From: Coptis chinensis
Lineage: Eukaryota; Streptophyta; Magnoliopsida; Ranunculales; Ranunculaceae
Reading direction: 5' to 3'
Length of the DNA stretch: 64,000 bases
Assembly: GCA_015680905.1 (NCBI GenBank)
Contig: CM027377.1
Coordinates: 37,782,501 to 37,846,500, forward strand
In this document: positions 4,962-19,448 of the stretch, in pieces
How positions within the stretch are numbered: position 1 is the stretch's first letter
Layout: every line of letters starts with the position of its first letter
Notes under the pieces: model-generated
Seen by the model: only the letters and a program-made list of their open reading frames with translations
Databases searched by the model: none
What the model was told of the DNA's origin: nothing
Made by a program: the position numbers and the translations under genes

Positions 4962-5225
4962 CACTACAAGAAAATGGGCTTTTTACCACGGATGCCCGGT
5001 ATTTTTAGCCACGGATTCGAGCTGTCGCATGTTTTCCCACGGTTTTCATCCGTAATTTTTTCTTAGTTGGGTTGTGGCGTGGTTCTGCAACTTTTACCTA
5101 CGACTGTTCACAATTTAGGCCGTGGCTGCCAACCACGATTTTATCCGTTGGATTCTCGTGTGAAAGCTTTTCCACGGCTTAAAGTTATTTTTCGCCCCTG
5201 TAAACCGTAGGCAAAGATCGATTGG
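4962..5225 (+). mobile_element. CACTA (En/Spm) transposon 5' terminus
   Basis: The LINE is broken exactly at CACTACAAGAAAATGGGC, the standard plant CACTA inverted-repeat start. Behind it the motif CCACGG recurs at 4986, 5009, 5037 and 5172, and inverted as CCGTGG at 5120. Such short subterminal repeats are the usual transposase-binding region of CACTA elements. No TNPD-type transposase is visible. I could not find a convincing opposite terminus downstream; the only candidate with eight matching bases, near 33434, is weak. The element probably carries the PP2C and CDC48 pieces that follow. Confidence 0.75.
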
Positions 5226-5839
5226 AATATAGTTCCAAGATAAAGTTCGACAACACAAACACACCACCAATGGCAGCCACCACCTCTCCCACCTACGGGC
5301 CATAGTATGTGACTTTGGTTCACGTTGTAACTGTTATCGTTGCTCTTCGTCCTCCGGCACTGGTACTTAACTACTTCATCCTCCTCCCTTTCTTCTTCTT
5401 AGTGCATTCTATAGTTTTGTTTAGGCTTGAAAACCTAGGGTTTCCTCTTTATGTTGTTTTCTTTGTTTAGATTTAAGAGCTAGGGTAATGTTTAATTACA
5501 ATAGTTTCTTTAATTTTTAATTTTGGGCATTTTTCGGGTGCATAAAATATTGTTGGGGTTCCTTCATTTCAGATATGGCTTTCTTAAACTGGTATAATCA
5601 TACCATGACTTAAATATAAAAACAAAAATTAATTTAATCAACTTTTTTCGGTACCACTTCACTAAATTATTTATTCGTCAGAAAAAAAAAAATGATTCTT
5701 CCTATTTTCTTCTTCTTTAATTATCACCAAATAAAAAAGGAAACTTTCGGATGTGGCTTTCTCTTTAACAATCTCAAGTGTTTTTTCTTTGTTTAAAGTA
5801 TTGCTTTTTACAGTTCATTCCTTGTCATCATTTCCGAGT
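5226..5839. other. CACTA interior or captured flank, no gene
   Basis: Between the CACTA subterminal repeats and the PP2C leader there is no open frame I recognise. The stretch turns T-rich towards 5700 and could be promoter sequence captured with the PP2C gene or plain element interior. The sequence alone does not decide. Confidence 0.35.
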
Positions 5840-6517
5840 TGATTTCTTCTTCTTCTTCAAAGCAAAATATACACAAGTTTGATGTTGCCCATTCATCAAA
5901 TTCAGGTAATTCAACACACTTCCTTCTTTCTTTCTTCTTCTTCTTTTTTTTTATTTTATTTTATTTTTTTTTTTTTATTTTTTATTGAAGGTTGATCTAG
6001 TTGTTTATTAAACTAGTGTTTCTTTTATCTTAAATTTAGGCGCATTTTGTTTGTTTGGGTCTTTGTTGGAATTGAGATCACACCTAGCTTAAATGATAAT
6101 TTGGGTTTTGTTAGAAGCTTGGAGTGTGTGTAATAAGTTTAAGTGGTGCTGAAGACTTTTTTAAGTTTTAAGATGGCGTCTAGAGAAATGAGGCGTCATC
6201 CTAATCTCGTTCCTTTAGCTGCTTTGATTACTAAGGAGTTGAGAAGTGAGAAGATGGAGAAGCCCAATGTGAGATATGGTTGTGCAGCTCAATCTAAAAA
6301 GGGTGAAGATTATTTCCCTGTGAAGACTGATTGTCAACGAGTTCCGGGGAATTATTCATCATCATTTTGTGTATTTGGAATATGTACCATTTTACTTTTT
6401 GTCTTAATGTTTAGTTTGTTAGAATAATTTGTTTGTTTTTGGTTATTGAGTTCATGCATTACTTATTTTCAAATCTTTGATGGGCATAATGGAAACATTA
6501 CAGTCGTATTTACAAGA
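5840..6517 (+). pseudogene. PP2C-type protein phosphatase 5' fragment (captured)
   Basis: This is the start of a plant protein phosphatase 2C gene. It has a 5' leader with a probable intron (GT at 5906, AG at 6113-6114), then exon 1 from ATG 6173 to about 6382. Exon 1 encodes MASREMRRHP followed by LVPLAALI and RYGCAAQSKKGEDY. From memory these match Arabidopsis PP2Cs that begin with MASRE and carry the same block. After an intron, 6473-6517 resumes with IFDGHNGN, the metal-binding DGH motif region of PP2C, and ends at FTR. The acceptor before exon 2 reads CAA instead of CAG, so normal splicing looks lost. The remaining catalytic domain is absent. The start ATG at 6173 matches the family N-terminus; an upstream in-frame start at 6143 is less likely. 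Confidence 0.85.
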
Positions 6518-6688
6518 TCGTGTTGCTTCATTTTTTTATTTTCATCATTCTCGTTAGGTAAGAATTTGATAAAAATTTATCGTTTATACTTTGAAATTCA
6601 AAGTGTTTTAAATTCTTGTATGGCAAACCACTAATTGTTTTTGTATTTCACTTGTACTCACTTAATGTGTACACCTATTCTCTCGCAG

Positions 6689-6734
6689 AGAGGGGGTAGT
6701 GTTGGAGATGCGGGAGGTGCTGTTGATAGAGTTT
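6689..6734 (+). pseudogene. CDC48: CDC48 (p97 AAA ATPase) exon fragment, left part
   Basis: An acceptor (CTCTCGCAG, ending 6688) opens an exon encoding RGGSVGDAGGAVDRV. This block lies just downstream of the Walker B motif of the second ATPase domain of CDC48, the hexameric segregase that extracts ubiquitinated proteins. The codon stream runs into the Athila LTR at 6735 and continues after it at 19129. The intron before it (about 6530-6688) has no clear partner in the PP2C fragment, so the two gene pieces were joined by rearrangement rather than belonging to one gene. Confidence 0.85.
6730..6734. repeat. target-site duplication AGTTT (left)
   Basis: AGTTT at 6730-6734 is repeated at 19125-19129, directly outside the TG...CA ends of the Athila LTR pair. 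The duplicated bases are codons of the CDC48 exon, which fixes the pre-insertion order. Confidence 0.95.
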
Positions 6735-17696: not shown

Positions 17697-17710
17697 GTTT
17701 GGGGGTGGTT
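17697..17710 (+). promoter_or_regulatory. polypurine tract
   Basis: GTTTGGGGGTGGTT lies immediately before the 3' LTR, the normal place for plus-strand priming. It is preceded by TTGAGGACAAA, a pairing repeated at an internal site (16118-16152) and in Athila-B. Confidence 0.8.
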
Positions 17711-19124
17711 TGATAAGAGCTCAAAACTATAGTTTTAACCCCTTAACAATAATACTTTTAGACCAATTATGCGAGTAATAAATAATAGTTAATGCTAATT
17801 ACGTGTTTTTATGTATTTCAGACATTGAAGTCAATTATGTGCAAAAATGTGCCACTTTGGCGATATCAATTAGCAAGGGTTGGTTGCTAAGAAGTTCTGT
17901 GATTAAAGGCCAATACGGGCAGAAACAGCACATAAAAGTCAGCAGAACTTCCGAAGATCGTATCTTTGGACTCAGGCCTCGGAATTGGCGTACCTTATGT
18001 CAAAACGACCGGCTCGAAAAGAGCTTTCCAATGGTTCAAATCTTGACCCAATCAGAAAAGCAAAAGTGGACGAAAAGCCTGTTGAAGTCAAAGCCAATTG
18101 AAAAGGGCCCTGTGGACTGAAGAAATTGGGCTTTAGGCTCGATTTTTCGGCCCAAAACATGGACCCTCAGCCCATGCACGAAAATATGGATCTGGTCTCC
18201 TCCATTTCCACACACAAGACTTAGCTCTTAAGGATCAGTTACTTTAGGTTAGAAGGTAGCCATTAGAGTAGCCATTAAAAAGCTTAGTTCTAAACATTTT
18301 TGGATTTAATTAATTAGTTTCCATTCCATTAATTAGTTTCATTCCTTGTTTTAGATTAGTTATTTGAATCATTGAATATCATTCATTAGATAAATAAAAT
18401 AGTTAGTTCTTGTTAAATTCGATCTTGTTATTTAATAATTGTTTAGATTAATTTCGATTATTGTTATTTAATGATTTCTTAGTTGTTAATTTAGATTTTA
18501 ATTATTGTTTAGTTAAATTTAATAAAGTTAGAATCTTTATATTATGTCGTATTCAATTTCATATGGAAATGATAGTTTGATGAATCAAGGCTAAACCTCC
18601 ATTAGAGGGGTTTGATGAAGCCTTGATGAAAACTTGATTTTGTTAGCTTAGAATCGTTGTAAGAGTCTATTCCACTCTAGAAGGTTGTTGATTCACCATG
18701 AGAATGGGTGGACGTCCTCACATGCTAGTTATGAATTGGTAGAGATGTCATGTATAATTAGGGATTAGAACGACCAATTCTTACCGTAATAACGTAAGAA
18801 TTGGATTACAACAATCTATGCTAGTTTCTTAAGTTGGATTCAAGGTGGATTTAATTCCCCCCTAATTCTTATTCTAGATTCAAACCTTAGTATTTCGTTG
18901 TATAATTCGTAATTCTCTCATTGACTTTGGTAGGATTGATAGTCGTAGGAAACTTGAATGCTAAAGAACTAAGAGTGGAACGAATCTTCTAGTCCAACTC
19001 TACTTCAATAGTATCGAGAGTAGAAATCTTTGATAAATCTAGTACAAGTTCAGTTTTTAGTTTTACTTTCGTTTAAAGTTTCATCGCTTTATTCATAAGT
19101 AAAACTATCATTTTACTATTATCA
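17711..19124 (+). repeat. Athila-A 3' LTR
   Basis: Begins TGATAAGAG, ends TATTATCA, and is followed by AGTTT. Most differences from the 5' LTR fall in the first 450 bases. Confidence 0.95.
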
Positions 19125-19129
19125 AGTTT
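19125..19129. repeat. target-site duplication AGTTT (right)
   Basis: Partner of 6730-6734. The last T is the first base of the next CDC48 codon (TTG, 19129-19131). Confidence 0.95.
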
Positions 19130-19448
19130 TGAACCAACTTCTTACTGAAATGGACGGAATGTCTGCAAAGAAAACTGTGTTTATTATTGGTGCTACCAAT
19201 AGACCTAATATAATATATTCTCGTGATTGCTTTCGGACACAGCCGCCTTGATCCGGTTGATCTACATCCCTTTGCTAGATGAGGCCTCTCGTCTTTCCAT
19301 CTTCAAGGCCTGCCTCAGGAAGTCCCCTGTTTCTAAAGATGTGGATTTGAATGCCCTTGCAAAGTATACTCAAGGCTTTAGTGGAGCCGATATCATAGAG
19401 ATATGCCAGCGAGCTTGCAAGTATGCCATCAGGGAGAACATTGAGAAA
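19129..19448 (+). pseudogene. CDC48: CDC48 exon fragment, right part
   Basis: Continues the CDC48 second ATPase domain: [26 protein letters not shown], then in another frame [29 protein letters not shown] and [16 protein letters not shown]. The segment between ATNRP and IYIP, which should hold DPALLRPGRLD with the arginine finger, is scrambled: a shifted frame hits TGA at 19249. So this copy could not make a working ATPase. It ends at a good donor (GTAAGT at 19449). No later CDC48 exon is seen in the window. It is a pseudogene fragment, apparently brought here with the PP2C piece. Confidence 0.9.

Follow-up and report, generated by a model that had tools for sequence, protein, structure and literature searches.

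The stretch of the Coptis chinensis genome analysed here (64,000 nucleotides of contig CM027377.1, C1:37782501-37846500, referred to as the window) raises the question of how pieces of two unrelated host genes, PP2C and CDC48, came to lie in the same orientation and with introns behind one end of a CACTA transposon. The sequence from 4962 to ~20140 very probably represents the left portion of a Pack-CACTA transposon copy, non-autonomous and with pieces of several genes, whose right end has been lost. The assembly searched for related sequences comprised 935.6 Mb in 116 contigs; the parts of the element in the window are given on the forward strand.

The CACTA element and its dispersed copies

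Members of the CACTA superfamily have terminal inverted repeats beginning with CACTA, a 3-bp target duplication, short subterminal repeats and, in the autonomous members, a transposase of the Transposase_21 type. The left end of the window copy is an exact terminal repeat, CACTACAAGAAAA, at 4962-4974. As a motif this repeat is not rare (six matches with up to two mismatches were observed in the window against 3.13 expected). It is followed by a subterminal region (4962-5240) rich in CCACGG-type repeats. Five exact copies of CCACGG or CCGTGG lie in 4962-5241, and among 3186 sliding 280-bp segments of the window only five reach this number, all of them overlapping 4962-5241; with up to one mismatch allowed, nine repeats were counted at this end. 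The first-pass annotation had placed a CACTA terminus at 4962, and the position is borne out by the exact repeat, by the densest CCACGG cluster of the window behind it and by three other copies that start at 4961/4962. To its left lies a LINE-type (long interspersed nuclear element) retrotransposon remnant with DUF4283 and endonuclease parts (1780-4961, forward strand; Pfam DUF4283 6.5e-19, Exo_endo_phos 6.1e-06), the host sequence of the CACTA end, which ends in the flank AGG before 4962 and is broken there by the insertion. Two other pieces of this remnant, of 154 and 83 aa, had no relevant Pfam match.

A genome search with 6400-6800, in which the best 40 of 1527 candidates were scored so that all counts are lower bounds, gave at least three other full PP2C...CDC48 copies with 95-96 % identity, at C4:40.4M, C5:41.5M and C8:54.1M. 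Six further copies matched only from 6509 onward, and shorter pieces were also among the matches listed. Ten places were compared with the window, namely these nine copies (L009-L017) and one CDC48 gene (L018). In all three of the other PP2C copies (L009-L011) the similarity begins at window base 4961/4962. L009 is complete at 4228 bp and has the target duplication GTT; L010 is complete at 8673 bp, a length that includes insertions (PP2C exon 1 holds one), and has the target duplication GAG; L011 is cut off on the right. The left end is exact in L010 and L011, as in the window, and reads CACTATAAG in L009, and the right ends of L009 and L010 are ...TTTTCTTGTAGTG. The right end of L009 was found to be tandemly duplicated together with its flank (oriented positions 7654 and 7739, both followed by GTT), which adds 85 bp to the element if the duplicate is counted.

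Seven of the ten CDC48-bearing copies (the window and L009-L017) have both ends, one end being absent from the window copy, L011 and L012, and all seven are flanked by identical 3-bp sequences (GTT, GAG, ATA, AAT, TAG, AGG and ACA). The ends of L014 are degenerate (CACAT / GTATTG). The end regions of L009, L010, L011 and L014 contain 7-11 CCACGG-type repeats per ~280 bp at up to one mismatch. The left end itself is more widespread than the PP2C piece: in a census of the best 40 of 290 candidates (at least 84 % identity over at least 259 of 279 bases) at least 11 genome copies were found, starting at the first to the fourth base, of which four carry PP2C.

The family thus has the CACTA terminal repeats, the 3-bp target duplications and the subterminal repeats at both ends that characterize the superfamily, as well as the Pack-CACTA arrangement of host-gene DNA inside transposon ends, with a CDC48 gene elsewhere in the genome and only distant resident relatives of PP2C. 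No transposase was recognized by eye among 27 of the 29 open reading frames (ORFs) of at least 70 aa in four complete elements, as is expected of non-autonomous elements, and a 180-aa piece of L009 and a 79-aa piece of L010 gave no significant family. The proposal of gene-fragment capture by a CACTA transposon, with introns kept, is upheld by the dispersed copies, their common start base, the complete termini and the target duplications. The structure is present at four loci on four chromosomes, with both CACTA termini and 3-bp duplications in two of them, and so has been mobilized as a unit.

The window copy itself is truncated. CACTA element sequence can be followed to ~20140, where retrotransposon B begins, and none was found beyond it in the window. 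No credible right CACTA end was found in the window: matches with up to two mismatches lie only at 10534, inside retrotransposon A, and at 53314 (two mismatches each), and inspection by eye of the matches listed at three mismatches gave none. The membership of the window copy in the family rests on its sister copies since its own right end is absent.

Sources of the three cargo pieces

The PP2C part consists of upstream sequence and leader (5360-6172), common to all four PP2C copies, with a predicted 5' leader intron at 5906-6172 (donor at 5906; splice sites predicted only), followed by the ATG at 6173 and exon 1 (6173-6379; MASREMRRHPN...SSFCVFG), which is open in the window, intron 1 (6380-6473) and the start of exon 2 (6474-6508; IFDGHNGN). 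In L010 an insertion splits exon 1 near the equivalent of window 6201-6205. Intron 1 has AT where the donor GT is expected, in all four copies, and CAA in place of the acceptor CAG (AA for AG in three copies by script and in L010 by eye). Neither Pfam nor PDB searches with the piece itself (77-85 aa for Pfam) gave a match, so the PP2C label rests on the resident gene L047, which is 63 % identical to the piece over 59 aa and whose hand-joined exons match Pfam PP2C at 2.1e-20. Intron 1 was compared with that of L047, and through the likeness to this gene the 5' end of a PP2C gene (leader intron, exon 1, start of exon 2) described in the first-pass annotation holds, its leader splice sites remaining predictions. 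At the protein level the matches beyond the four copies were L047, L048 (55 %) and three weak ones. At the DNA level the PP2C search, with 16 of 16 candidates scored, gave the four element copies and no donor. The gene that donated the piece must accordingly have been lost, be missing from the assembly or be of foreign origin.

The first-pass annotation had joined PP2C directly to CDC48. Both pieces do lie in one element, but a third piece of ~97 bp (6509-~6605), which belongs to neither gene, intervenes, and the direct junction was rejected; the order is PP2C/PPR/CDC48. This piece comprises the end of an exon and the start of an intron (donor 6558) of a PPR gene. In a genome search with a 225-base query (best 40 of 79 candidates scored) at least eight loci matched at full or nearly full length and so retain the PPR piece together with its native intron. 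One of these, L041, begins with a first-family CACTA end and runs on into a PPR repeat (Pfam PPR_2 6.5e-09). Six loci (L014 and five elements of the second family described below) match query bases 1-150, and the four PP2C copies match bases 50-150. Query base 150 is thus the PPR/CDC48 junction in all ten copies and base 50 the PP2C/PPR junction in all four, PPR similarity starting at 6509, the next base after PP2C. Among the matches listed, four loci showed 86-88 % identity over about 101 bases and the remaining ones 72-79 % over most of the query, and both groups are taken, from their similarity, for PPR relatives; two further loci are L056 and L057. Five PPR-bearing CACTA copies (L041, L052, L053, L054 and L055) have an identical 12-bp left flank, TTTTACTCCTTT, and therefore were probably multiplied within a larger repeat after one insertion.

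The CDC48 part begins at 6606 with an intron (6606-6688) captured from ~5 nt past its donor, which combines with 6558-6605 into an intron of mixed PPR and CDC48 origin. A retrotransposon divides the exon into 6689-6734 and 19130-19448, the second part being frameshifted, and the start of the next intron follows (19449-19562). A stretch of 44 aa joined across the split gave a PDB phmmer match of 2.1e-27, and Pfam AAA and AAA_lid_3 were matched as well, in agreement with the intron-exon-donor piece of CDC48 recognized at first. A search with the exon and its downstream sequence (40 of 40 candidates scored) found, besides the ten copies in elements, two closely similar gene copies at C2:45.0037M (L018, 92 %) and on C83 (L040, 93 %), which are the donor candidates, a partial copy at C8:5.17M (97 % over 168 bases), five CDC48-like exons of 75-78 % and many short matches to the downstream piece. 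L056 and L057 matched the downstream piece only. L018 is a CDC48 gene with the other conserved exons. Inspection by eye of the ORFs listed for its 9.9-kb stretch showed no PP2C, and the PP2C relatives are located elsewhere, so adjacency of the two genes at a parental locus, which would explain their joining without a transposon, was not observed. The L018 intron starts with ATTTG (donor AT) and that of L040 with GTTTG (GT). A second CDC48-like exon, 76 % identical to that of the window, lies ~8 kb from the L018 exon at C2:45011783-45012121.

Two elements, L056 (C5:18.16M) and L057 (C8:57.98M), appear from their sequence to preserve the state before CDC48 capture. In them the native PPR intron is followed, after 250 and 248 bp respectively, by the sequence that follows CDC48 in the window (19563-20140, predating the capture, present in L056 and partly in L057). 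The seven CDC48-bearing copies that were measured (the window without retrotransposon A, L010 and L013-L017) have 552-556 bp in place of these 248-250 bp. In most of the measured copies the right junction reads GAAGAGCTTCTCACTTGG; its parents are GAAGAGCTTCT in the CDC48 gene and GCTTCTCACTTGG in the pre-capture element. The captured stretch ends with GCTTCT (19557-19562), common to both parents, from which copying during break repair was inferred.

Probable history of the cargo

The PPR/CDC48 cargo is also present in a second CACTA family. L013, L015, L016 and L017 have the ends CACTAGTAGAAAA... / ...TTTTCTTGTAGTG (TAGTA in L015) and the target duplications AAT, TAG, AGG and ACA; L012 is a damaged member with an altered left end, and its right end was not found. 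The ends of this family are without the CCACGG repeats (0 and 1 matches in L016, the one counted, versus 7-11 at the counted first-family ends). The family shares with L014 only a block that runs from within the PPR piece to ~40 bp before a VPS13-like match of L014 (Pfam VPS13_N 1.1e-04, below the cut-off). Leftward of the block L014 has sequence in common with the PPR-only element L041, and in comparison with L016 and L017 the block is surrounded on both sides by non-homologous element sequence. A segment of ~384 bp is present in L014, L010, L056 and, as far as that copy goes, the window; the second family is without it and L057 without most of it. L017 contains another exon-like ORF at 6378-6569, MTESSSIACESS...GKLGKRLSHLDSIP; a tentative likeness to a plant OTU-type protease was not borne out, Pfam and PDB searches being negative. 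From the extent of the shared block, the simplest reading is that the cargo was transferred from the first family to the second.

Taken together, these observations make it very likely that a Pack-CACTA element with three host-gene sources was built by stepwise capture and then dispersed. In the proposed order of events, a CACTA element already carrying the PPR piece would have suffered an interior break. In the course of its repair 248-250 bp would have been replaced by ~553 bp copied from a CDC48 gene, namely an exon with most of the intron before it and the beginning of the intron after it. In one sub-lineage the part left of window 6509 would have given way to a 5' piece of PP2C attached to a CACTA left end of related type. 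The chimera would have transposed, presumably with a transposase supplied by an autonomous relative, to give at least four dispersed copies, of which the one in the window was later invaded by retrotransposon A and truncated on its right at retrotransposon B. Separately, an internal segment of the PPR/CDC48 cargo would have passed into the second family with its different ends. The more specific proposal is that copy-in repair inside CACTA elements acquires genes and that captured cargo is handed to a family with different ends, with pre-capture element, post-capture element, donor gene and second carrier family all surviving in one genome and the PP2C piece as perhaps the sole trace of a lost gene copy; the balance tips slightly in its favour.

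Several observations weigh against this history. The window copy is without a right end, and the assembly contains no PP2C donor closer than L047 with its 63 % over 59 aa. At the left CDC48 junction the microhomology is at most 2 bp, with an extra T. In L009 and L011 the CDC48 similarity already breaks off at window 19515, 42 bp short of GCTTCT, and the GCTTCT junction is therefore not seen in these two copies. The sole left end seen for a pre-capture element, that of L056, is degenerate, and in L057, retrieved as a partial stretch, the PPR piece is represented by its intron portion only.

The cargo could instead have grown by fusion of neighbouring CACTA insertions, the host DNA between them being mobilized as one. 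This is the published model for Pack-CACTA elements, given with examples of fused elements (PMC8903248), and the PP2C step is compatible with it, since the window-type left end differs from the L041 type (87 % over 53 bp with L011). At the CDC48 step, however, the sequences that border the gap on its left and right are already those of the pre-capture elements, and CDC48 therefore looks like a clean internal replacement and not like DNA caught between two elements. Fusion as the general explanation is accordingly considered possible but rather unlikely.

Capture of the PPR and CDC48 pieces by two CACTA families independently was also considered. An alignment of the CDC48 stretch (512 columns, 12 rows) gave an unrooted tree with support of 96/94 for a group of PP2C copies, 100/99 for the second family and 99/93 for the genes. 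In it the genes are placed among the elements, between the element clades and not outside them, as separate captures could produce. The tree supports the clades, and by itself it settles neither the direction of transfer nor the choice between one and two captures. The artificial PPR/CDC48 junction, however, falls at the same base in 10/10 copies of both families, and the shared block is flanked by non-homologous sequence in L016 and L017 and forms part of the L014 composite. Two independent captures are hence highly improbable.

The next explanation, slightly less probable still, is that the chimera has become a domesticated gene with a functional transcript or protein. The PP2C exon-1 matches are stop-free in all four copies (L010 lacks the first 8 residues), the PPR frame of L014 enters the CDC48 exon in frame, that exon is open in three of the nine copies read (L010, L013 and L016), and a soybean CACTA element is described as giving spliced chimeric transcripts of captured pieces (PMC1947982). 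Against this stand the mutated intron-1 donor in all four PP2C copies, the frameshift or stop in the CDC48 exon of the other six copies and the out-of-frame PPR frame of four second-family copies. In addition, when exon 2 is followed in the PP2C frame into the CDC48 part, the three codons ERG or EMG are met and the frame then closes with a stop, in 3/3 readable copies. Pairwise synonymous/nonsynonymous counts for PP2C exon 1, from three copies only (L010 left out), were 3/3, 3/4 and 0/7, with nonsynonymous/synonymous proportions (pN/pS) of 0.021/0.074, 0.028/0.075 and 0.049/0, a mixed picture from changes too scarce for a judgement on selection. A PP2C-CDC48 fusion protein is very unlikely because the splice sites of PP2C intron 1 are mutated and the PP2C frame stops soon inside the CDC48 exon. 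Judged by its reading frames, the cargo most probably encodes no functional protein, and it might be transcribed.

The least credible explanation, an ordinary segmental duplication or pseudogenes that adjoin a CACTA end by chance, would account for the kept introns and is contradicted by four dispersed copies with the same start base and by target duplications in 7/7 two-ended copies.

Neighbouring repeats and known CACTA captures

Long terminal repeat (LTR) retrotransposon A (6735-19124, 12.4 kb), nested in the CDC48 exon, has LTRs at 6735-8162 and 17711-19124 and the target duplication AGTTT (6730-6734 and 19125-19129). The Kimura two-parameter (K2P) distance between its LTRs is 0.051, which corresponds to an age of about 2 to 3.6 million years if 7e-9 to 1.3e-8 substitutions per site and year are assumed. 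The LTR pair at 56863-63852 (89 %) is related to the LTRs of retrotransposon A, and 16081-16884 matches 61408-62220 at 80 %. Retrotransposon B (20133-29628), which ends the recognizable CACTA sequence, is related to the element at 34908-44769, a 5.2-kb interior stretch being 71 % alike, with LTR pairs of 94 and 95 % respectively; in neither was a target duplication detected within 8 bp of the ends. Another LTR retrotransposon, at 46254-52505, has the target duplication ATATT and LTRs that are 96 % identical. Tandem arrays at 32803-33296, 48891-49540, 47301-47695 and 30135-30384 have units of 105, 87, 126 and 132 bp, respectively.

One of the closest parallels to the cargo is Tgm-Express1, a 5.7-kb soybean CACTA element with fragments of five host genes (UP, CDC2, FPK, M and CS), introns included, and chimeric transcripts (PMC1947982). 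Like the present element, it is a CACTA transposon in which fragments of several unrelated host genes, exons as well as introns, are combined; the complete PP2C copies found here measure 4.2 and 8.7 kb. The genes differ, and transcripts were demonstrated in soybean; in C. chinensis several copies and a likely pre-capture state were found.

The Pack-CACTA and other Pack-TYPE elements of Arabidopsis, rice and maize are non-autonomous and contain captured coding DNA between transposon ends, in maize often from more than one locus (PMC8903248). The present elements resemble them in all these respects, several source loci included. The printed mechanism is fusion of neighbouring insertions (PMC8903248; same model in the review PMC13317346), whereas in the present elements CDC48 seems to have entered by internal replacement, and two kinds of CACTA ends enclose the cargo. 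In Jozin, a CACTA element of Chenopodium, captured fragments of neprosin-like and AP2 genes lie upstream of the transposase coding region (PMC8978399). The second-family end CACTAGTAGAAAAAA resembles the Jozin terminal repeat, and gene fragments were captured in both; Jozin has a transposase coding part and other gene pieces, while no transposase was recognized here. In the searches made of open-licence literature no report was found among the papers listed of the PP2C/PPR/CDC48 combination or of a cargo common to two CACTA families.

Capture of several genes by CACTA elements was already known, the entry of the DNA having mostly been modelled from end products. C. chinensis has kept what looks like the element before the CDC48 capture along with the element after it and the donor gene. 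The two junctions are thereby legible at single-base resolution, which allows the repair-copy model to be tested against the fusion model. If the hand-over between families is true, a captured exon can outgrow the transposon lineage that took it up, and estimates of age and copy number for such exons would change.

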